From: Thermofilum sp. NZ13 | GTDB taxonomy: Archaea; Thermoproteota; Thermoprotei; Thermofilales; Thermofilaceae | NCBI GenBank assembly: GCA_002855745.1 | Contig: NDWX01000001.1 | Coordinates: forward strand, 62,001-126,000 | DNA: 64,000 nucleotides | Direction of reading: 5' to 3' | In this document: positions 35,745 to 46,548 of the stretch, piece by piece | Position numbering within the stretch: position 1 is the stretch's first letter | Layout of the letters: every line of letters starts with the position of its first letter | The notes under the pieces: model-generated | What the model was told of the DNA's origin: nothing | Seen by the model: the letters and a program-made list of their open reading frames with translations, nothing else | The model's database searches: none | Translations under genes and position numbers: made by a program

Positions 35745-36616
35745 CTCTTCTCACCACCCTCATTAGCGACCTGCTGTTCGAAGCGCTTCGCGCGCCAATA
35801 TGCGAAGCCGCCGATGATGGCTAGCGCCACCGCGCCGGCTGAGAATCCCGGAATGGCTATATCCTTTAAGACCTCCTGGGCTTGGCGGGTCGCAACGACG
35901 GGGTTGTCCGGTAGCTTCTCCTTGAGAGCGGAGGCCTTCTCCTTGGAGGCGACGTAGATCCACCTGGTTCCACCGCCTATGTAGTTGTCGAGGTCCAGGC
36001 CGTAGACCGCCTTCCCCTGAGACTTAGCCTCGCGGGCTATCCTGACCGCTTCCTTGATGCTCGTGAAGGTGAACACGCCGGTGGGGCACGCCTCGACGCA
36101 CGCTGGCTTCAGGCCGTTCTGGATCCTGTCGACGCAGAAGGTGCACTTGTAGAACTTGCCGTCCGAGCCCCTTCTCGGGACGTTGTACGGGCAGGCGGTC
36201 TGGCAGTAGCCACATCCAATGCACTCCTCGGCGCGTATAACGACGGCGTCTTCAGGCGTGACCTTAATGGCCCCCACGGGGCACGCACGGGCGCACGGCG
36301 GGTCGTAACAGTGCATGCACTGGAAGGGTAGCGGGGTCCACGTGACCTGCTGGAACGTGAACGAGCCCTCCGGGATGTTGAGCGTCTTCTGCGACTCGGA
36401 CTCGTAGTAGAAGACGACCTTCCACGCGTCGGCGGTCAGGTCGGGCGGGTTCGCGAATACTGTGCTGAAGGTCGTCTCGACGGCTTTCCTCCCGTTCCAC
36501 GCCTGGCACGCGATCTCGCAGGCCCTGCAGCCGATGCACTTGTCGAGGTTCACTACAACCCCGTAGCCCTCCTCCTTAGAGGGTAAAACCAGCTTCACCA
36601 TCCTCCACCACCTCAA
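35741..36616 (-). CDS. Formate dehydrogenase iron-sulfur subunit
   Basis: A 291-residue ferredoxin-type subunit with four 4Fe-4S sites: CIGCRACEIACQAW, CMHCYDPPCARACPVGA, CIGCGYCQTACPYN and CTFCVDRIQ with a distal CVEACPTGV. A C-terminal helix (IAIPGFSAGAVALAIIGG) anchors it in the membrane, as in FdnH. It is translationally coupled to both neighbours by four-base overlaps. Confidence 0.92.
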   Translation of the reverse strand: MRWWRMVKLVLPSKEEGYGVVVNLDKCIGCRACEIACQAWNGRKAVETTFSTVFANPPDLTADAWKVVFYYESESQKTLNIPEGSFTFQQVTWTPLPFQCMHCYDPPCARACPVGAIKVTPEDAVVIRAEECIGCGYCQTACPYNVPRRGSDGKFYKCTFCVDRIQNGLKPACVEACPTGVFTFTSIKEAVRIAREAKSQGKAVYGLDLDNYIGGGTRWIYVASKEKASALKEKLPDNPVVATRQAQEVLKDIAIPGFSAGAVALAIIGGFAYWRAKRFEQQVANEGGEKR

Positions 36617-39600
36617 CCTTGAGCCTTCCTAACAACACCTATCCAAGCCTTAGACTCCTGAATCGTCGTCACCACGTCCAAGGCGTCGGGCGTGATGAAG
36701 TTTCCCTGAGGCCCTGTGGCCTGTCCGAGGAAGCTGAAGTGCCAAACGACGTTCACCACCGGTAGCTCTTTGCCTCCCATGTTGAGGTACGCCTCGCCCT
36801 TAGTGACGAAGGCTTTCATCCTGATCGAACCCCTGGCGGTGACGATCTCCACGAGGTCCCCTGGCTTGATGCCCAGCTTCTCGGCGAGCTTCTCGTTAAT
36901 GTACACGAACGGCTCTGGCACGAGCTGAACGAGGTACGGCGTGTTGCGGGTCATGCTACCGCTGTGCCACATCTCGACTAGCCTGTTCGAGGTGAGCGCT
37001 ACGAGGACGCCCTGCTCGCCGGAGAGATCCTTGGGCTCGAGGGCCAGGCCGACGGGCTTGCCCTTTACTACGTCCGGCTGCTCGTTGAGCACCTGGAGGT
37101 TGAACGCGTTGAGGAAAGCGATCGTGGGGTACTTGAGGGCCAGCTCCACGTCTGGTGACTCGGCGGGCTCGGTGTGTATCGGGTACGAGAAGTTGTAGCC
37201 CTTGTACCAGCCGCCCATCTCTTTTATCACGCCGAGCACAGCCTGCTTGAGGCTACCGGTCTGGTCGTAGTACGCTTTGAGCTTCTGCCTGAACATCGCG
37301 TAAGCGTCCTTGTACTTGCTCCAACTATCGCCGGAGAAGAAGGAGTACTTGACCGCCGCTTTAGCCTTCAGCGTCGTCTCCTCGTCCCAGTACAGGCCGT
37401 CGTTCGCCCAGACGAACCTCATCCCCGTTAAGCTTGCGAACTCCTCGAACGAGACGGGAGTCGGCGCTCCATCCTTATCGACGAGGAGGCTCTTCGCCGG
37501 GAACGCGAGCTCCCCGGTCCTGATAAACTTCAGCATGTCGAGGCCAGCCCAGAGGTCGGAGATGCCGCTCAGCTTCCTCTTAAAGTACTTCGGGAGCCCC
37601 CAGTTGTGCCCAGGTATGTAGGCTGGCCTGTAGCCGCCTGTGTACTCGTCGATCACCTCGCCGGTCTCGCCCGTGACGGTGTACTCCTTGCCCCCGACGA
37701 CTATCTTGACGGGCTGACCCTCCGCGACGTCCAGCGCGTCGAGTGTGTACATGAAGCGCACGTTCTGCGGCCAGCTCCAGCCCCAGTCCTTGTAGATGGT
37801 GAACTTCTGGGCGAAGTACCCGTCGATCTCCTGCGGGCTTCTGATCCTCCTGTCCCTCCTCATCGACGTGAACTCGTCGGTTACTGGGTTGTACATGCCG
37901 TCGTAGATGAGCGTCGCGAAGTTCACCTCCTTGTTGATTATCCTCGGGTTCACCTCCGCCTCGATCGGGCCGACGGGGGTCGCCGCTCCAGTGCCCCCGC
38001 TGTAGTCCCAGGACTTCTCAGGGGCCACCTCGCGATAGTAGAGCTCGAACACTCGCACTCCTCTCCTTATAGCTATCTTCTCCTTCCTTTTCCCTACGAG
38101 CTGGCTCGGAAGCGGGACGGCTCCAGCCCTCCAGAGGTAGTTGAAGAGGTTCACGATTATCCAGTAGTCCGGCCTGGAGTTGCCCCGCGGCTCGAGAGCC
38201 TTGTACGTCCACTGTATCACCCTGTTGCCGTTAGTTCTCGTGCCCTCCTTCTCTGCGAAGCTCGCGGAAGGCAAGAGCACGTCTGCGAACCATGCGGTCT
38301 CGGTCTCGAACATGTCTGCCACCACGAGGAGCTGCAGGGAGGCTAGCGCGGCCCAGATGATCTTGGCGTTGGGGTTCGTCACGGCCGGGTTCTCGCCGAA
38401 TATGAGGGCGGCTTTGATCTCGCCGTTCAGGGCCCTCCGCGTGAAAGTAGTCTCGGTCGAGCCAGAGCCGATGGCAATGTCGCTGATCACCTTACCGTTC
38501 TGCGGGTCGGTCTCAGGGTCTGTCCCGATGAATATGCCCCAGAGGAGCTCGTGCCTCCTCCAGCCGTAGAACTTGAAGACCTGGAGCATCTTCGCCGGAC
38601 TAGCTTGTCCCCGCTTGGCGGCGTCCTTCAGTGTCGGGAAGGCTCCCAGGGCCCAGTCGGGTACCTCCCAGTTCCAGGCATCCGGCATGCCTTGGAGCTT
38701 CCAGTCCTGGTAGAGCCTGATCTCCATGGCGTTCGCCGGGTGGGCGTGGTAGCCGCTGAGGGAGGCGTTGCCGGCACCCTGGACGTCCGTGGCTCCCTGC
38801 ACGTTGCTGTGCCCCCTGAACGGGTGCGTCCCACCGCCGGGGTACCCGACGTTTCCGAGGAGGAGCTGGACGATGGCCGCGGCTCTGATGATGTTCACCG
38901 TCGCGTTCGTGTGCTGGGTCATGCCCATAGCCCACTGGATGATGCCGTGCTTCTTGTGCCCCGTCACGACGCCACTTCTCTCGACGTAGATCTTCGCCAC
39001 GTTCCTCAGCGTCTCGACCGGGACGCCGGAGATCCTCGAGACCTCCTCCGCGGTGTAGCTGGAGACGAGGTCCTTCAGCTCGTCAAGATCCGCCTGGGTT
39101 ATGTTCCACCTTCCCATAAGCCTCTTGAACTCGTCGAGCTGGTCTATCGGCGGGTTCCTCTCGAAGAAGGCGTAGTGCAGGATGTAGAGGAATATCGCTG
39201 TGTCGCTGCCCGGCCTGAAGGGAACCCATATGTCGGAGACCATCGCGGTTCTTGAGAGGCGCGGGTCGAAGGTTATGAGAATGGTCCCCCTCTCCTGCTT
39301 CGCCTTGAGGAAGTGCTGGAACGAGAGCGGGTGGGCTTCAGCAGGGTTCGAGAAGAAGAGCACCACATCGCTGCTGTAGACGTCCTCTATGCTGGCCGTC
39401 TCAGCACCCCAGCCGTAGGTGGCCGCGAGCGCCGAGACCGTTGAGGAGTGGCACTTGCGGTACTGGGAGTCCATGTTGTGAGTACCCAGGAAGACTGCGA
39501 GCTTCTTGGTGAGGAAAGCCTCCTCGTTCACGAGGATCGACGAGCCTATGATCTGCACAGGCGTCTTGGAGCCAACGTGGTACACGCCGTCGCTCTGGAA

Positions 39601-40152
39601 CGGCGCACCCGTCTTCGAGAGGTACTCGTCCATTATAGCCTTCATCTTGCTCGCTATGTACCTGAACGCCTCGTCCCACGACACAACCCTCCACTGCGGC
39701 GGGTACTTCTTGACCAGCGCTACGAGGTCGTCCCATGACTTAGCGCTCAGAATCTCCTCAACGGGCGGCTTGGGCCCCGTCCTTATCATCGGGTACAGGA
39801 CACGCCTCTGGTTCTCGACGATCTGGAACACCGAAAAGCCCTTAGGGCAGAGCGCGCCCCTGTTAATGTAGGAGTCGGGCGAGCCGGTCGTCCAGACGAT
39901 CCTGTCCCCCACAGTGTAGAAGTCGATGCTGCAGCCCATCGAGCAGTAGGGGCATATCACGGAGGTTACCTTGGCTTTAACGATGTCCGTCTTACCGCCT
40001 ACCTCGCCGAGGCCCCACTTAGTCCTCCACTCCTTGAAGGGGACCGGCGACTCCGCGAGGACAGGCACGGAGGACAGGGACATAGCCGCGGAGGCTATGG
40101 CGGCTAGCTTAAGGAACACTCTCCTGTTAACCAGGTTCTGCTCCAGGCTCAT
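36613..40152 (-). CDS. fdhA: Formate dehydrogenase molybdopterin subunit (Tat-exported)
   Basis: A 1179-residue member of the DMSO reductase superfamily. A Tat signal is at residues 9-32 (NRRVFLKLAA then a hydrophobic stretch), so the enzyme is folded inside and faces outward. The Fe-S site is CPYCSMGC (Cys67, 70, 74) plus Cys102. The metal-ligand position is RKCHSS with Cys234, the cysteine equivalent of Sec in FdnG; it is encoded by TGC. It is longer than FdnG (about 1015 residues), with an insertion after residue 500. Other family members (tetrathionate or polysulfide reductases) are possible. However, fdhD, fdhE and FdnHI-like partners make formate dehydrogenase the best call. Confidence 0.88.
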   Translation of the reverse strand: MSLEQNLVNRRVFLKLAAIASAAMSLSSVPVLAESPVPFKEWRTKWGLGEVGGKTDIVKAKVTSVICPYCSMGCSIDFYTVGDRIVWTTGSPDSYINRGALCPKGFSVFQIVENQRRVLYPMIRTGPKPPVEEILSAKSWDDLVALVKKYPPQWRVVSWDEAFRYIASKMKAIMDEYLSKTGAPFQSDGVYHVGSKTPVQIIGSSILVNEEAFLTKKLAVFLGTHNMDSQYRKCHSSTVSALAATYGWGAETASIEDVYSSDVVLFFSNPAEAHPLSFQHFLKAKQERGTILITFDPRLSRTAMVSDIWVPFRPGSDTAIFLYILHYAFFERNPPIDQLDEFKRLMGRWNITQADLDELKDLVSSYTAEEVSRISGVPVETLRNVAKIYVERSGVVTGHKKHGIIQWAMGMTQHTNATVNIIRAAAIVQLLLGNVGYPGGGTHPFRGHSNVQGATDVQGAGNASLSGYHAHPANAMEIRLYQDWKLQGMPDAWNWEVPDWALGAFPTLKDAAKRGQASPAKMLQVFKFYGWRRHELLWGIFIGTDPETDPQNGKVISDIAIGSGSTETTFTRRALNGEIKAALIFGENPAVTNPNAKIIWAALASLQLLVVADMFETETAWFADVLLPSASFAEKEGTRTNGNRVIQWTYKALEPRGNSRPDYWIIVNLFNYLWRAGAVPLPSQLVGKRKEKIAIRRGVRVFELYYREVAPEKSWDYSGGTGAATPVGPIEAEVNPRIINKEVNFATLIYDGMYNPVTDEFTSMRRDRRIRSPQEIDGYFAQKFTIYKDWGWSWPQNVRFMYTLDALDVAEGQPVKIVVGGKEYTVTGETGEVIDEYTGGYRPAYIPGHNWGLPKYFKRKLSGISDLWAGLDMLKFIRTGELAFPAKSLLVDKDGAPTPVSFEEFASLTGMRFVWANDGLYWDEETTLKAKAAVKYSFFSGDSWSKYKDAYAMFRQKLKAYYDQTGSLKQAVLGVIKEMGGWYKGYNFSYPIHTEPAESPDVELALKYPTIAFLNAFNLQVLNEQPDVVKGKPVGLALEPKDLSGEQGVLVALTSNRLVEMWHSGSMTRNTPYLVQLVPEPFVYINEKLAEKLGIKPGDLVEIVTARGSIRMKAFVTKGEAYLNMGGKELPVVNVVWHFSFLGQATGPQGNFITPDALDVVTTIQESKAWIGVVRKAQG

Positions 40153-40153
40153 C

Positions 40154-40330
40154 TCAGAACACCCTCTCGGCCTTACCCTTCTCGCGCTTACCCAGGATGG
40201 ACTTCAGGGTCAGGCAGGTGTAGTCCTCGGTCTCCTCGTAGAGAGCCATCAGCCCGTGGGCGACGTCGGGCTCTGTCGCCAGCAGCTCCTGGATGCGCTG
40301 TTTTAATTCAACAGACTGTTCGTGGCTCAT
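40154..40330 (-). CDS. 58-residue ORF leading the fdh operon
   Basis: An open frame from ATG 40330 to TGA 40154, one base before the fdhA ATG. The product is MSHEQSVELKQRIQELLATE followed by PDVAHGLMALYEETEDYTCL and TLKSILGKREKGKAERVF. It is a small helical protein with a single Cys and a basic tail. Position and tight spacing show it is the first gene of the operon. A TATA-like stretch lies in the palindrome upstream. It might be a chaperone or Fe-S/redox adaptor of FdhA. I do not recognise a family. Confidence 0.7.
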   Translation of the reverse strand: MSHEQSVELKQRIQELLATEPDVAHGLMALYEETEDYTCLTLKSILGKREKGKAERVF

Positions 40331-40357
40331 GTTTGGCGTTTAAATTATTAGCAAAAA

Positions 40358-40376
40358 GCTTAATAAACTATTAAGC
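40358..40376. promoter_or_regulatory. Perfect 8-base inverted repeat in the fdh promoter
   Basis: GCTTAATA-AAC-TATTAAGC lies 28-46 bases before the operon's first ATG, where its TATA box should be. Symmetric operator over the TATA box would give repression. fdhE transcription starts to the right. Its TATA-like box is GTTTTAATAGG at about 40428-40438, leaderless at ATG 40458. Confidence 0.6.
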
Positions 40377-40457
40377 AAATAGCCGAATATATAACGTTGT
40401 CAATATGTAGATACTCCTACCTGTCACGTTTTAATAGGCCTTTTCGCTTGCGTCCGC

Positions 40458-41144
40458 ATGGACGAAAAGCTGATCCGCGCAGTTTGCCCCGAGGAGGATT
40501 GCGCCAAAGAGCTTGCCGAAATACTGAAGGCTTACAGCGAGATCGAGAGCAACATCGCGGGCGTCAAGTTCAGTCCCAGGCTCGCTAGGGACGAGCCGGT
40601 TTTCCTCGAGAACCTCGAGAACATGGACGAGCTCATCGCGCTGTCGCTCGAAGTCCTCAAGAGAAGCAGCGTCGAGGTGGACAGCTCCATAGCCACCCCT
40701 GAGGCCCTCAAGGAGGCGTTCCCCAGCGACCCGGAGCTCGCCCTCCTGTCCTACGTCTCGCGCAGGATACTCCACGAGTCCCTCAAGGGCAGGGTGGAGG
40801 ACCTCCGGTGGGACAGGGGGCGGTGCCCGGTCTGCGGCCTAACACCTTCGGCAGCGGTGTACGTCGAAAGGGAGGGGTGGGTGTACTCGCAGACAGCGCT
40901 CCGCCTCGCCTGCCTCTGCGGGTACTCCTGGGACTACGAGGCCTTCAAGTGCCCGGCCTGCGGCGCGAGGGGCAGGGACAGCTTCGACGTGTACATGCAG
41001 GGGCAGGTGGTGTACTACAAGTGCAAGAAGTGCGGCCACATACTCGGGACCCTGCGGGCCAGCGGGGAGAGCTTGAGCAGAGAGCTACCAGTGGCCCTCA
41101 ACTACGGGGTGGTGAGGCTGATCCTCTCGGAGCGCGACCGCTAG
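40458..41144 (+). CDS. fdhE: FdhE, formate dehydrogenase accessory protein
   Basis: A 228-residue protein with the FdhE zinc-finger layout: CPVCGLTPSAAVYV, LRLACLCGYSW, FKCPACGARG and YKCKKCGHILGT, four CxxC-type pairs expected to bind metal. FdhE binds formate dehydrogenase and helps its assembly or maturation. The N-terminal half (residues 1-110) is helical and less conserved. It is divergent from fdhA and shares the control region with the palindrome. Confidence 0.85.
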   Translation: MDEKLIRAVCPEEDCAKELAEILKAYSEIESNIAGVKFSPRLARDEPVFLENLENMDELIALSLEVLKRSSVEVDSSIATPEALKEAFPSDPELALLSYVSRRILHESLKGRVEDLRWDRGRCPVCGLTPSAAVYVEREGWVYSQTALRLACLCGYSWDYEAFKCPACGARGRDSFDVYMQGQVVYYKCKKCGHILGTLRASGESLSRELPVALNYGVVRLILSERDR

Positions 41145-43417: not shown

Positions 43418-43747
43418 ATGATAGTAACCACAACTCCCAGTATCCCGGGCTACAGGATCAAGCGGGTGTTGGGGGTCGTGACTGGCATGAGCGTTAGAAC
43501 GAGGGGCTTTCTGGGCAGGATGGCGGCGGGGATAGAGGCGATTGTCGGGGGAGCCTCGAGTGCTTACGTGACCGAGCTGAAGAAGGCGAGAGACGAGGCG
43601 CTCAACGACCTCATCAACTCCGCCAGGCAGATGGGGGCGAACGCCGTCGTGGGCCTAGACTTTGAGACCTCCGAGGTCCTTGAGGGCTTCATCGTCGTGA
43701 CGGCTACGGGCACAGCCGTGGAGGTGGAGCCCGAGCAGACGGGCTAG
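43418..43747 (+). CDS. YbjQ-family (UPF0145) protein
   Basis: A 109-residue homopentameric-type protein: TPSIPGYRIKRVLGVVTGMS, the characteristic ARDEALNDLINSARQMGANA helix, and VVGLDFET. The role of the family is unknown; a heavy-metal link has been suggested from distant homologues. The ATG follows a TATA-like GGCTTTTAACC about 25 bases upstream. It overlaps the end of the methyltransferase gene by four bases. Confidence 0.85.
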   Translation: MIVTTTPSIPGYRIKRVLGVVTGMSVRTRGFLGRMAAGIEAIVGGASSAYVTELKKARDEALNDLINSARQMGANAVVGLDFETSEVLEGFIVVTATGTAVEVEPEQTG

Positions 43748-45114
43748 AGGCCCAGACCGAGCTCTGTCAGCTCCGCCCTAACAGAGCGGACCACCTCGAC
43801 CCACTCTGCGCTAGGCTCGCCTAAGGCGGGGTCATAGACCTCCCAGAAGGGCTTACCGTAGGAGGGGCTCCGCAGCTTCTCACCGTACCTCTTGTAGAGC
43901 TCCAGCACAATGGCGCAGGTATCGCTCAGGCCAATACCTTGGGACGCCACCGCGGCGCCGAGCTCCGCCATGAGCTGCGCCTCCAGCCCCCCGCCGTTGG
44001 GCGCTGTTCCGTTCGCGGGAACCGGGCCCAGTAGGTGGAGGCCCGCCGCGGCTGCGGCCACGGTGTTGGCGGCCACCTCGTAGAGGTACTCCCTCGTGCC
44101 CAGCCCGAAAGCCGGCCACACGTCAGCCACTAGTGGTAGCCTCATGTGCTCGTTCGCCAAGCCGACCGCAACCTGCACCCAGATGCACTCCGCCGACGAG
44201 GTGGCCTTCTTGACGATGTGCGTGGGGTGGATCAGCACGTAGCCAGCCCTGTAGGCCGCGAGCGCCAGGATCGTCTCAGCCACGGAGACTACCGCGGAAC
44301 CCGCGGGGCCCCTTGCGAATCCACCCACAATCGGGTCGACGAGCGCCGCGCCGATCACCCCCTTCTCGAGGCCGACCTGCGCCTTGGTCAGCTGGGAGTA
44401 GTCCGTCTTCAGCTCGTTCAGCACGGGCAGGAGCTGCGCGTCCCCCTCGAGCAGGAGGCCCGCGGACATCGCCGCGAGGCTGGCGACGGACGAGACGCTG
44501 CTCTCCCCGGCGAGGAGGTGCATCCCGGGCCTCCCGGAGTCCCTGAGCGCGCGGCGCAGGTACAGCAGCTCTCTGACACCCGCCACGGCCTCGCTCGGCG
44601 CGCCGGCCTTGACCCTGACCCCCGACACCTCCTGTATGCTCCCGTGGTCCAGAGCGTCCACGAGCGGCTGCCTCGCGTAGGAGAGTGCCGTGGCGTAGAA
44701 GTACTCCTCGGGCACCGGCGTCCCAGCTAGGCCGCCGAACACGAAGGGCCTCCTCCTGTCGCCCGGGAGCCTCGCCCACAGAAGCCTAGCGTCCAGCCCC
44801 CTGCCCAGCACCAGCTCGCGGCGCGCGCTGGCTAGGGCCTCCCGCAGCTCCTCCTCGGCGAACCTCGCGACCCTGCTCTCCTCCACCACGTAGAGCCCAA
44901 CCTCAAGGGCGAGCTCGAAACCAGCCTCGAACACCGACCTCCCGAGGCCCCCGTCGACTGACACGGGGCAGGAGGGGTCGTAGGCTACTCCGTGCTCCCT
45001 CTCCAGCTCGGCGACCCTCCTGGAGACCAGCTCGAGGTCGAACTTCTTCTGCTCGACGTACTCGCCGAGCTTCGCCCTCCCCTCGACCTGCAGGGGGGTC
45101 AGCATGCGGCACAC
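43744..45114 (-). CDS. MtmB-like methylamine methyltransferase lacking pyrrolysine
   Basis: A 456-residue protein that aligns over its length with monomethylamine:corrinoid methyltransferase MtmB (458 residues). It shows FEAGFELALEVGLYV, RPFVFGGLAGTPVPEEYF, GRPGM at 194-198, LNELKTDYS, and a C-terminus close to EVYDPALGEPSAEWVEV. In MtmB, pyrrolysine is the third residue after GRPGM and is encoded by TAG. Here GRPGM is followed by HLLAGESS, so Leu201 (codon CTC) replaces it. The substrate therefore differs or the mechanism does not need Pyl. Alternative ATG 45105 fits the upstream GAGG better. It is the second gene of an operon with the corrinoid protein. Confidence 0.8.
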   Translation of the reverse strand: MCRMLTPLQVEGRAKLGEYVEQKKFDLELVSRRVAELEREHGVAYDPSCPVSVDGGLGRSVFEAGFELALEVGLYVVEESRVARFAEEELREALASARRELVLGRGLDARLLWARLPGDRRRPFVFGGLAGTPVPEEYFYATALSYARQPLVDALDHGSIQEVSGVRVKAGAPSEAVAGVRELLYLRRALRDSGRPGMHLLAGESSVSSVASLAAMSAGLLLEGDAQLLPVLNELKTDYSQLTKAQVGLEKGVIGAALVDPIVGGFARGPAGSAVVSVAETILALAAYRAGYVLIHPTHIVKKATSSAECIWVQVAVGLANEHMRLPLVADVWPAFGLGTREYLYEVAANTVAAAAAGLHLLGPVPANGTAPNGGGLEAQLMAELGAAVASQGIGLSDTCAIVLELYKRYGEKLRSPSYGKPFWEVYDPALGEPSAEWVEVVRSVRAELTELGLGL

Positions 45115-45121
45115 CCCTCGC

Positions 45122-45775
45122 TCAATCCTTGCCCAGCAGCTTCTTGCACTTCTCTACCGCCTCGACCGCGTCCCTGGCGTAGGCGTCGGCCCCGATCTCC
45201 CTGGCGAACTCCTCTGTCACCGGGGCGCCGCCGGCGATGACCTTCACTTTGTCCCTCAAGCCCGCCGCCTTCAGCGCGTCGATGACGTTCCTCATCTCCA
45301 GCATAGTCGTCGTGAGCAGCGCGCTCATCCCCAGGATGTCTGGCTTGTAGGCCCTCACGGCCTCGACGAACTTCTCAGGCGGGACGTCGACCCCCAGGTC
45401 CACCACCTCGAACCCGCTCACCCTCAGCATCACCGCCACCAGGTTCTTCCCGATGTCGTGTTTGTCCCCGCGGACCGTGCCTATCACGACCCTCCCCCTG
45501 CCGGAGGACTGCCTCGAGGCCTCGAGAAGCGGCAGCAGCAGGTCCCCCATCACGCCGTTGAAGATGTCCGCGGCTACTATGAGCTCGGGCAGAAAGTACT
45601 CGCCCCGCTCGAACCTCTCCCCAACCTCCCACATGCCGGGCCTCAAGCCCTCCTCGACCACTGCAAGCGGGCTACAGCCTGCTCTCAGAGCCTCCTCTAC
45701 GAGCCTACGCGTCAGCTCACCGTCCAGCTCCGCGACGGCCCTACGAACCCTGTTTAACAGATCCTTGCAGTCCAC
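45122..45775 (-). CDS. Corrinoid protein of a methyltransferase system
   Basis: A 217-residue protein with an N-terminal helical cap (about 1-90) and a B12-binding Rossmann domain. The base-off motif GDKHDIGKNL (His106) binds cobalt, and GMSALLTTTM and VIAGGAPVTEEFA are the later loops of MtmC/MttC-like proteins. It ends seven bases before the MtmB-like start. The GTG 45775 start is about 27 bases after TATA-like GCTTAAAGTC (45797-45806), so it leads a leaderless operon. Confidence 0.9.
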   Translation of the reverse strand: MDCKDLLNRVRRAVAELDGELTRRLVEEALRAGCSPLAVVEEGLRPGMWEVGERFERGEYFLPELIVAADIFNGVMGDLLLPLLEASRQSSGRGRVVIGTVRGDKHDIGKNLVAVMLRVSGFEVVDLGVDVPPEKFVEAVRAYKPDILGMSALLTTTMLEMRNVIDALKAAGLRDKVKVIAGGAPVTEEFAREIGADAYARDAVEAVEKCKKLLGKD

Positions 45776-45838
45776 AATCCGGTAACCTACGCGAAGACTT
45801 TAAGCATTGTTATCTCATCCTTGAAAAATGAAAACACC

Positions 45839-45922
45839 TCAAGGAGGCCCACCGCCCCCTGAAGAAAAGAACAGAGCGCAAGCCGCTGGGCAGTAGCGGA
45901 GCACGCTCGCATCAACGCACAT
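45839..45922 (-). pseudogene. VapC (PIN) N-terminal remnant
   Basis: From ATG 45922, overlapping the antitoxin stop, the frame reads MCVDASVLRYC and ends 27 residues in at TGA 45839. MxVDASVL is the exact opening of PIN toxins, with the first metal Asp; the rest of the domain is absent. The placement, an ATG inside the end of vapB, is that of a vapBC operon, so this is a 3'-truncated toxin. Confidence 0.65.
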
Positions 45923-46151
45923 CTTCTCGGAGCACTCTCTCCGTCTCACGAACCGCCGCTCCATCTATCTGCTCAGCGGTGTCGTACGCGGCTGGCTTAG
46001 CGGCCCCGTAGTGTTCTCCAACTTTTATGGGCACGAGCACGATCCGCTCACCCTCAACCCTGACTATGAAGCGCTTGAAGGGTACCGCGCGGCGCACGCT
46101 GACTGGAAGGTAGACCCGACCCTTACTGTTGACTTCAACTACTATTGCCAC
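45912..46151 (-). CDS. AbrB-type VapB antitoxin, toxin lost
   Basis: A 79-residue antitoxin. AbrB hairpin VEVNSKGRVYLPVSVRRAVP, then IVRVEGERIVLVPI, and an acidic-helical tail. Its partner gene is reduced to the 27-residue fragment at 45839-45922, so the antitoxin is now solitary. It may still act as a regulator. Confidence 0.8.
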   Translation of the reverse strand: MAIVVEVNSKGRVYLPVSVRRAVPFKRFIVRVEGERIVLVPIKVGEHYGAAKPAAYDTAEQIDGAAVRETERVLREDVR

Positions 46152-46230: not shown

Positions 46231-46548
46231 TTACTCAAGTATCAGGACGACCCGCTCTGGGGCGAAGCGCCACTCCTCGCCCTCGCGCAGCAGCCTGTAC
46301 TCGACCACTGCGCCGTCCTCCAGCTCCTCCACCGAGACGATGCCGGCCCTGAAGCCCCTCCCGGCCAGCAGGTAGGCGAAGTCCTCGAAGTAGTCGTAGA
46401 AGCCGCACGTCACGCAGAAGCTCCCCCTAAACTCGACCGCGAACCTATCCCCCTCCACCCAGAGAACCCTTGCCCTGCCCTCAGCCCCGTGATACCTGTT
46501 GAACTCCTCCACAGCCTCCCTCAAAGGCTCCTCCAAGCTCACGACCAC
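46231..46548 (-). CDS. Hypothetical protein with CxxC
   Basis: A 105-residue alpha/beta protein. N-terminal helix EEPLREAVEEFNRYHGAEGR, strands around VLWVEGDRFAVEFRGSF, then CVTCGFYDYFEDFAYLL carrying one CxxC, and a C-terminal strand RFAPERVVLI. Ferredoxin-like folding is plausible; no family is recognised. It is next to the pilin genes. Confidence 0.5.
   Translation of the reverse strand: MVVSLEEPLREAVEEFNRYHGAEGRARVLWVEGDRFAVEFRGSFCVTCGFYDYFEDFAYLLAGRGFRAGIVSVEELEDGAVVEYRLLREGEEWRFAPERVVLILE

Follow-up and report, generated by a model that had tools for sequence, protein, structure and literature searches.

Homologues of the methyltransferase MtmB that lack pyrrolysine (Pyl) were already noted in 2010 (PMC2933860), and a first function was reported in 2026 for one of them, MtqB, which demethylates tetramethylammonium and choline and retains a low activity on monomethylamine in vitro (PMC13044021). 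MtqB of Methanococcoides methylutens Q3c lies beside its own corrinoid protein (MtqC), works with MtbA, a URO-D protein, and coenzyme M in a methanogen, and has a conserved Met-Cys signature, given as logo positions; the function of the remaining non-Pyl MtmBs is left as unknown in that paper (PMC13044021). The original prediction, that a UAG-coded pyrrolysine defines the MtmB family, does not hold in the light of these two papers. The non-Pyl MttB superfamily (MtgB, MtyB and others, with MtgC-type corrinoid proteins) also consists of Pyl-free relatives of the methylamine methyltransferases that have corrinoid partners. On the side of the methyl acceptor, methyl-corrinoid proteins are believed to be the in vivo methyl donors of core methionine synthases (PMC7857596), and Ruegeria has a cobalamin-dependent demethylation of glycine betaine that is linked to its methionine synthesis (PMC12478193).

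The window (the whole stretch of 64,000 nucleotides that was analysed) comes from a Thermofilum genome (1.88 Mb, 33 contigs, 99% complete) and contains a non-Pyl mtmB-like gene next to a gene for a corrinoid protein (Table 1). Thermofilum is not known to be methanogenic. Compared with Pyl-containing MtmB of M. barkeri, the protein retains the fold, GRPGM, Glu205, Asn234-Glu235-Lys237, the GG motif and the corrinoid partner, but has Leu at Pyl202, replacements of E229, E259, Q333 and Y335, and an identity of 30%, and PylS was not found in its genome. Like MtqB (compared here by description), it is an MtmB homologue without Pyl that is encoded beside a corrinoid protein of its own, but in the Thermofilum genome URO-D is missing. 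From the non-Pyl MttB superfamily it differs by sequence family (TM ~0.55 to MtgB); the same genome additionally encodes a Pyl-free MttB homologue, accompanied by a separate corrinoid gene. No description of this MtmB branch, of its host or of its likely methyl acceptor was found in the literature examined; the kind of enzyme itself is known, and what is likely to be new is that a distinct MtmB branch occurs in a host that is not a methanogen and probably has an anabolic acceptor.

Our preferred reading, to which we give a probability of roughly 0.45, is a route in which a methyl group passes from a methylated donor via the MtmB-like protein and the corrinoid protein to homocysteine, the last step being carried out by a core methionine synthase. 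Taken by itself, the first step, in which a methyl group from a compound other than monomethylamine is transferred in a corrinoid-dependent manner, is highly probable.

Table 1. Features of the corrinoid/mtmB-like locus (positions in the window).
Feature	Position	Strand	Basis
Non-Pyl MtmB-family (PF05369) methyltransferase	43744..45114	(-)	Pfam, PDB 1l2q, AF2 model
Leu201 codon CTC at the UAG/Pyl202 site	44512..44514	(-)	sequence and alignments
Corrinoid (B12-binding) protein, MtmC/MtbC/MtgC type, start GTG 45775	45122..45775	(-)	PF02607 and PF02310
DxHxxG cobalt-ligand motif of the corrinoid protein, GDKHDIGKN	45449..45466	(-)	sequence, alignment
TATA-like GCTTAAAG, ~25 bases upstream of the corrinoid start	45798..45805	(-)	by eye
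Small conserved protein, 105 aa, CVTC motif	46231..46548	(-)	neighbourhoods, alignment

The results given below on fold and substituted site, as well as on operon, gene content and co-occurrence, were obtained by computation. The mtmB-like frame (456 aa as listed) reads GGG AGG CCC GGG ATG CAC CTC CTC GCC GGG GAG, that is GRPGMHLLAGE, as had been predicted, and Pyl202 of 1l2q was aligned with Leu201 in both the pairwise and the multiple alignment; the sole in-frame TAG is the terminator of the gene. Comparison with known families gave: Pfam MtmB (PF05369; cut-off 25 bits), 244.8 bits, E 2e-72, profile positions 9-450 of 450; PDB sequence search, 1l2q, E 2e-52, nearly whole length; AlphaFold (AF2) model, pLDDT 93.5, TM 0.95 and 1.8 Å to M. 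barkeri MtmB (1l2q/1nth/1tv2), the next-ranked fold matches being MttB and MtgB (TM ~0.55). Length and flanking motifs of MtmB are thus kept, as the original prediction had it, and the structural model and active-site alignment that it had proposed place Leu201 at the Pyl site within an MtmB fold. A missed UAG or a wrong frame was ruled out, the frame being free of internal stops and the fold continuous; homology to another fold only was ruled out by the TM of 0.95 to MtmB. The true start is probably ATG 45105 (453 aa), since an SD-like GAGGGGTG stands just upstream and the N-termini of the relatives fall there.

In the alignment, the residue at the Pyl202 position is Leu or Ile in 21 of 21 clade members (13 of the 13 Thermofilaceae sequences covering the site and eight relatives from outside this family); because the same form recurs in all of these, the Leu at this position is not due to chance. 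Residues E229, E259, Q333 and Y335 of M. barkeri MtmB, which we take to line the Pyl site, correspond in the alignment to Leu, Leu, Asp and Trp throughout the Leu/Ile clade. Asp331, Trp333 and the neighbouring Asp260 are invariant in the clade, and Glu205, Asn234, Glu235 and Lys237 of MtmB are retained; about 70 invariant columns were counted in the 19-sequence alignment, with identities down to 39%. Methylamine chemistry appears unlikely for this clade, since E259 is replaced by Leu, Q333 by Asp and Y335 by Trp besides the change at the Pyl site. In view of the clade-wide substitutions around the Pyl site, the invariant residues and the retained ones, the clade members look like enzymes that have been maintained while their donor site was rebuilt.

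The original prediction that a DxHxxG corrinoid protein precedes the mtmB-like gene was confirmed (GDKHDIGKNL); 7 bases lie between the end of the corrinoid gene and the mtmB-like frame as listed. The protein is composed of a B12-binding_2 (helical) and a B12-binding (Rossmann) domain according to Pfam, scores 211.7 bits against NCBIfam TIGR02370 (below the cut-off of 215.3), is also matched by the MtgC and MtbC models, and is the conserved partner in relatives of the MtmB-like protein. The TATA-like element, recognised by eye, suggests that the two genes are expressed as a leaderless two-gene transcript. The CVTC protein had no Pfam match; its gene immediately precedes the corrinoid gene in two further Thermofilum genomes and is at best a possible accessory gene. 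Between it and the corrinoid gene, an AbrB-like antitoxin-type frame (45912-46151(-)) is followed by what appears to be a truncated PIN-domain start (VDASVLRYC...), both recognised by eye; this AbrB-like/PIN remnant is missing there in some relatives. On the other side of the operon, a formate dehydrogenase-like molybdopterin enzyme (1179 aa) is encoded at 36613-41144, adjoined by a divergent zinc-ribbon gene, FdhE-like by eye. The flanks of the mtmB-like locus vary by species in Thermofilum (YbjQ, CPBP protease-like and sugar dehydrogenase-like genes), and in sister genera the gene is flanked by an ABC-type transporter and an altronate dehydratase-like gene; among these neighbours, in Thermofilum and in the sister genera, none clearly indicates a methyl donor.

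Matches to PF05369 were found in 47 of 398 genomes of the phylum, and a TAG occurs within the match in only two of them, both of one family (f18). One copy of the mtmB-like gene is present in each of 14 out of 17 Thermofilaceae genomes. In the tree, the Thermofilaceae sequences form one clade with one Desulfurococcaceae and seven Methanomethyliaceae sequences (100/100); the sister group of this clade carries Asn at the Pyl site (91/86), and M. barkeri MtmB and the UAG-containing sequences stand apart from the Leu/Ile clade. Outside Thermofilaceae the unit consists of a corrinoid protein, MtmB(Leu/Ile) and MtmB(Asn), mostly in direct tandem and sometimes beside a reductive activase; Thermofilaceae retain the Leu copy only, without MtmB(Asn). 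The corrinoid gene adjoins the mtmB-like gene in Thermofilum; in sister genera it is found elsewhere, beside the activase, and this activase-side protein is the sole PF02607 corrinoid protein found there.

The search of the genome for pylS, RamA and methyl acceptors that had been proposed with the original prediction gave no PylS match, one activase and a MetE C-domain-like protein as the only candidate acceptor. With the TIGR02367 profile, no PylS match above cut-off was obtained (positive control: G211, 253 bits), and a Pyl system was ruled out as to PylS. Of the prediction of an undescribed methyl-transfer system, transfer from another substrate is a sensible reading, because a non-Pyl MtmB with a substituted site and a cognate-type corrinoid protein is encoded in a genome with no PylS match; the suggestion that the kind could be undescribed was overtaken by MtqB (PMC13044021). 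The activase is AcsV-like (PF14574, 607-aa frame). Its gene overlaps an amidohydrolase-like gene (391 aa; L196:8356-11345), and the corrinoid/URO-D/activase locus of another genome of the same genus (G004) includes an amidohydrolase of similar size, which suggests a link. The non-Pyl MttB homologue of the genome is preceded by the second corrinoid gene, which is split in two frames (108 and 104 aa; L138:10306-10981, contig C30) and is intact (217 aa) in a genome of the same species (G192); the split is either an assembly error or a sign of a decaying gene.

No match to URO-D (PF01208) was found in the Thermofilum genome under study (G000), nor in G192, G003 and G005, and the Pterin_bind and MtrH profiles had no match in G000; all three profiles do match in control or relative genomes. 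Since these acceptors were not found, the candidate acceptor is the MetE C-domain-like protein (322 aa), which is, for the profiles searched, the only recognised methyl-corrinoid acceptor left in this genome. It has a single domain (one match to PF01717 in the C-domain search) with invariant zinc residues (H201, C203, E226, C289); MetE proteins were its top fold matches, a PDB sequence search with it gave no match, and the best NCBIfam match was PRK00957 methionine synthase (E 3e-18, below cut-off). It is thus like the core synthases MesA-MesC (PMC7857596) in its single MetE-C-like domain and HxC...E...C zinc residues, but distant from the named families, and its expected partner would be an MtmC-type corrinoid protein, as against MtrA or CoFeSP for the named core synthases.

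Among Thermofilaceae, which as genomes of one family are not independent by descent, a strong match to the synthase family was found in 13 of the 14 mtmB-positive genomes and in none of the three mtmB-negative ones (Fisher p 0.006); for genomes at least 90% complete, with a single negative genome, p was 0.08. In three of the genomes (G004, G011, G008) the synthase was missed by PF01717 and found with the family alignment (A2); the exception, G006 (79% complete), has MtmB and no synthase match. Outside Thermofilaceae, the Desulfurococcaceae genome with a member of this MtmB clade has the synthase family too. The occurrence of the non-Pyl MttB is not coupled to that of the synthase: G004 has MtmB and synthase without MttB. 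A synthase gene adjoining the operon was not found in any Thermofilum examined. Overlapping genes for a corrinoid protein and a core methionine synthase, with mtrH adjoining, occur in Methanosuratincola (G064, L152). In a genome of another family, a related synthase, a class III aminotransferase, an aldehyde dehydrogenase, MttB, an MtmB with Met at the Pyl site and a corrinoid gene are encoded within 13 kb (L069:1-12965), a gene set suggesting that an N-methylated amino compound is demethylated and degraded.

From these data we infer as follows which reaction takes place, which way the methyl group moves and that the methionine synthase is the partner. The MtmB-like TIM barrel would take a methyl group, without pyrrolysine, from a methylated donor, probably not monomethylamine, and transfer it to Co(I) of the adjacent corrinoid protein; the methyl group would then not be passed to coenzyme M, folate or H4MPT, and the core (MetE C-domain-like) methionine synthase encoded elsewhere would transfer it from the methyl-corrinoid to homocysteine. 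The AcsV/RamA-like activase would re-reduce Co(II) to Co(I), and the outcome would be the scavenging of methyl groups into methionine and SAM. Against the route speak the non-adjacent synthase gene, the dependence of the co-occurrence on kinship, and the biology of the host: Thermofilum is reportedly an organotroph that obtains most of its amino acids from the environment and relies on other organisms for purines and cofactors as well (PMC5823990). URO-D enzymes, encoded in many of the sister genomes, could be alternative acceptors; the core-synthase reading was obtained by a C-domain search, and a split folate-type MetE is possible.

The strongest competing explanation, which we hold to be unlikely, is an MtqB-like methyltransferase for a quaternary amine (choline, tetramethylammonium or similar) that would serve an unrecognised acceptor and be catabolic rather than methionine-forming. 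Among the non-Pyl MtmBs only MtqB has been characterised (PMC13044021), and the invariant Asp331 and Trp333, in place of MtmB Gln333 and Tyr335, could bind a cationic amine; however, MtbA/URO-D, MtrH and a pterin acceptor were not found in the genome by profile searches, and the clade and the Pyl MtmBs are not neighbours in the tree, whereas MtqB, placed by description, reportedly lies near the latter. Next in order, and likewise improbable, the acceptor would be a different, unrecognised thiol or cofactor methyltransferase, and the synthase would co-occur by descent only. Joint inheritance can explain co-occurrence within one family, and URO-D methyltransferase-like genes are numerous in the sister genera and stand beside corrinoid genes in G004 and G002; MtmB and the corrinoid protein are kept, however, in the Thermofilum genome studied here and in G003, both without URO-D. 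A true monomethylamine methyltransferase working without pyrrolysine would agree with the fold and length of MtmB and with the residual activity of MtqB, but is very improbable, as Pyl202, E229, E259, Q333 and Y335 are all replaced clade-wide and PylS was not found. A decaying or non-catalytic relic, conceivable for a single-copy gene in a genus of reduced genomes with a split second corrinoid gene in this one, is hardly credible given a gene that is intact and conserved in six Thermofilum relatives, complete genomes among them, with its invariant columns and its corrinoid partner preserved.

If the methionine route is correct, a protein family known from methane formation also supplies methionine in archaea that seemingly lack the usual methyl acceptors. 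More tentatively than for the locus itself, the reading may be extended: non-Pyl MtmBs of hyperthermophiles outside the methanogens would be the donor-side enzymes of an anabolic route from a methylated compound via an MtmC-type corrinoid protein to a core methionine synthase, without folate, H4MPT or CoM, and the Leu/Asn pairs of Methanomethyliaceae would not be methylamine enzymes. The mtmB genes of Methanomethylicia have been listed as monomethylamine methyltransferases (PMC10033731); since nearly all MtmB matches in Methanomethylicia are without in-frame UAG, "mtmB" in these genomes should be taken with caution as evidence for methylamine use. The two conserved paralogues (Leu/Ile and Asn) with one corrinoid protein offer a compact test of MtmB without pyrrolysine.

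Tandem Leu/Ile and Asn paralogues with one common corrinoid gene were observed in several Methanomethyliaceae loci (L054, L066, L084, L088 and others); mtmB annotations from this class have been taken to imply that methylamines are used. In a further family (f23; L059, L060, L065, L076), MtmB homologues carry His in place of Pyl and differ at most active-site residues; they form a separate long-branch clade, and their loci contain a corrinoid gene and an activase gene.
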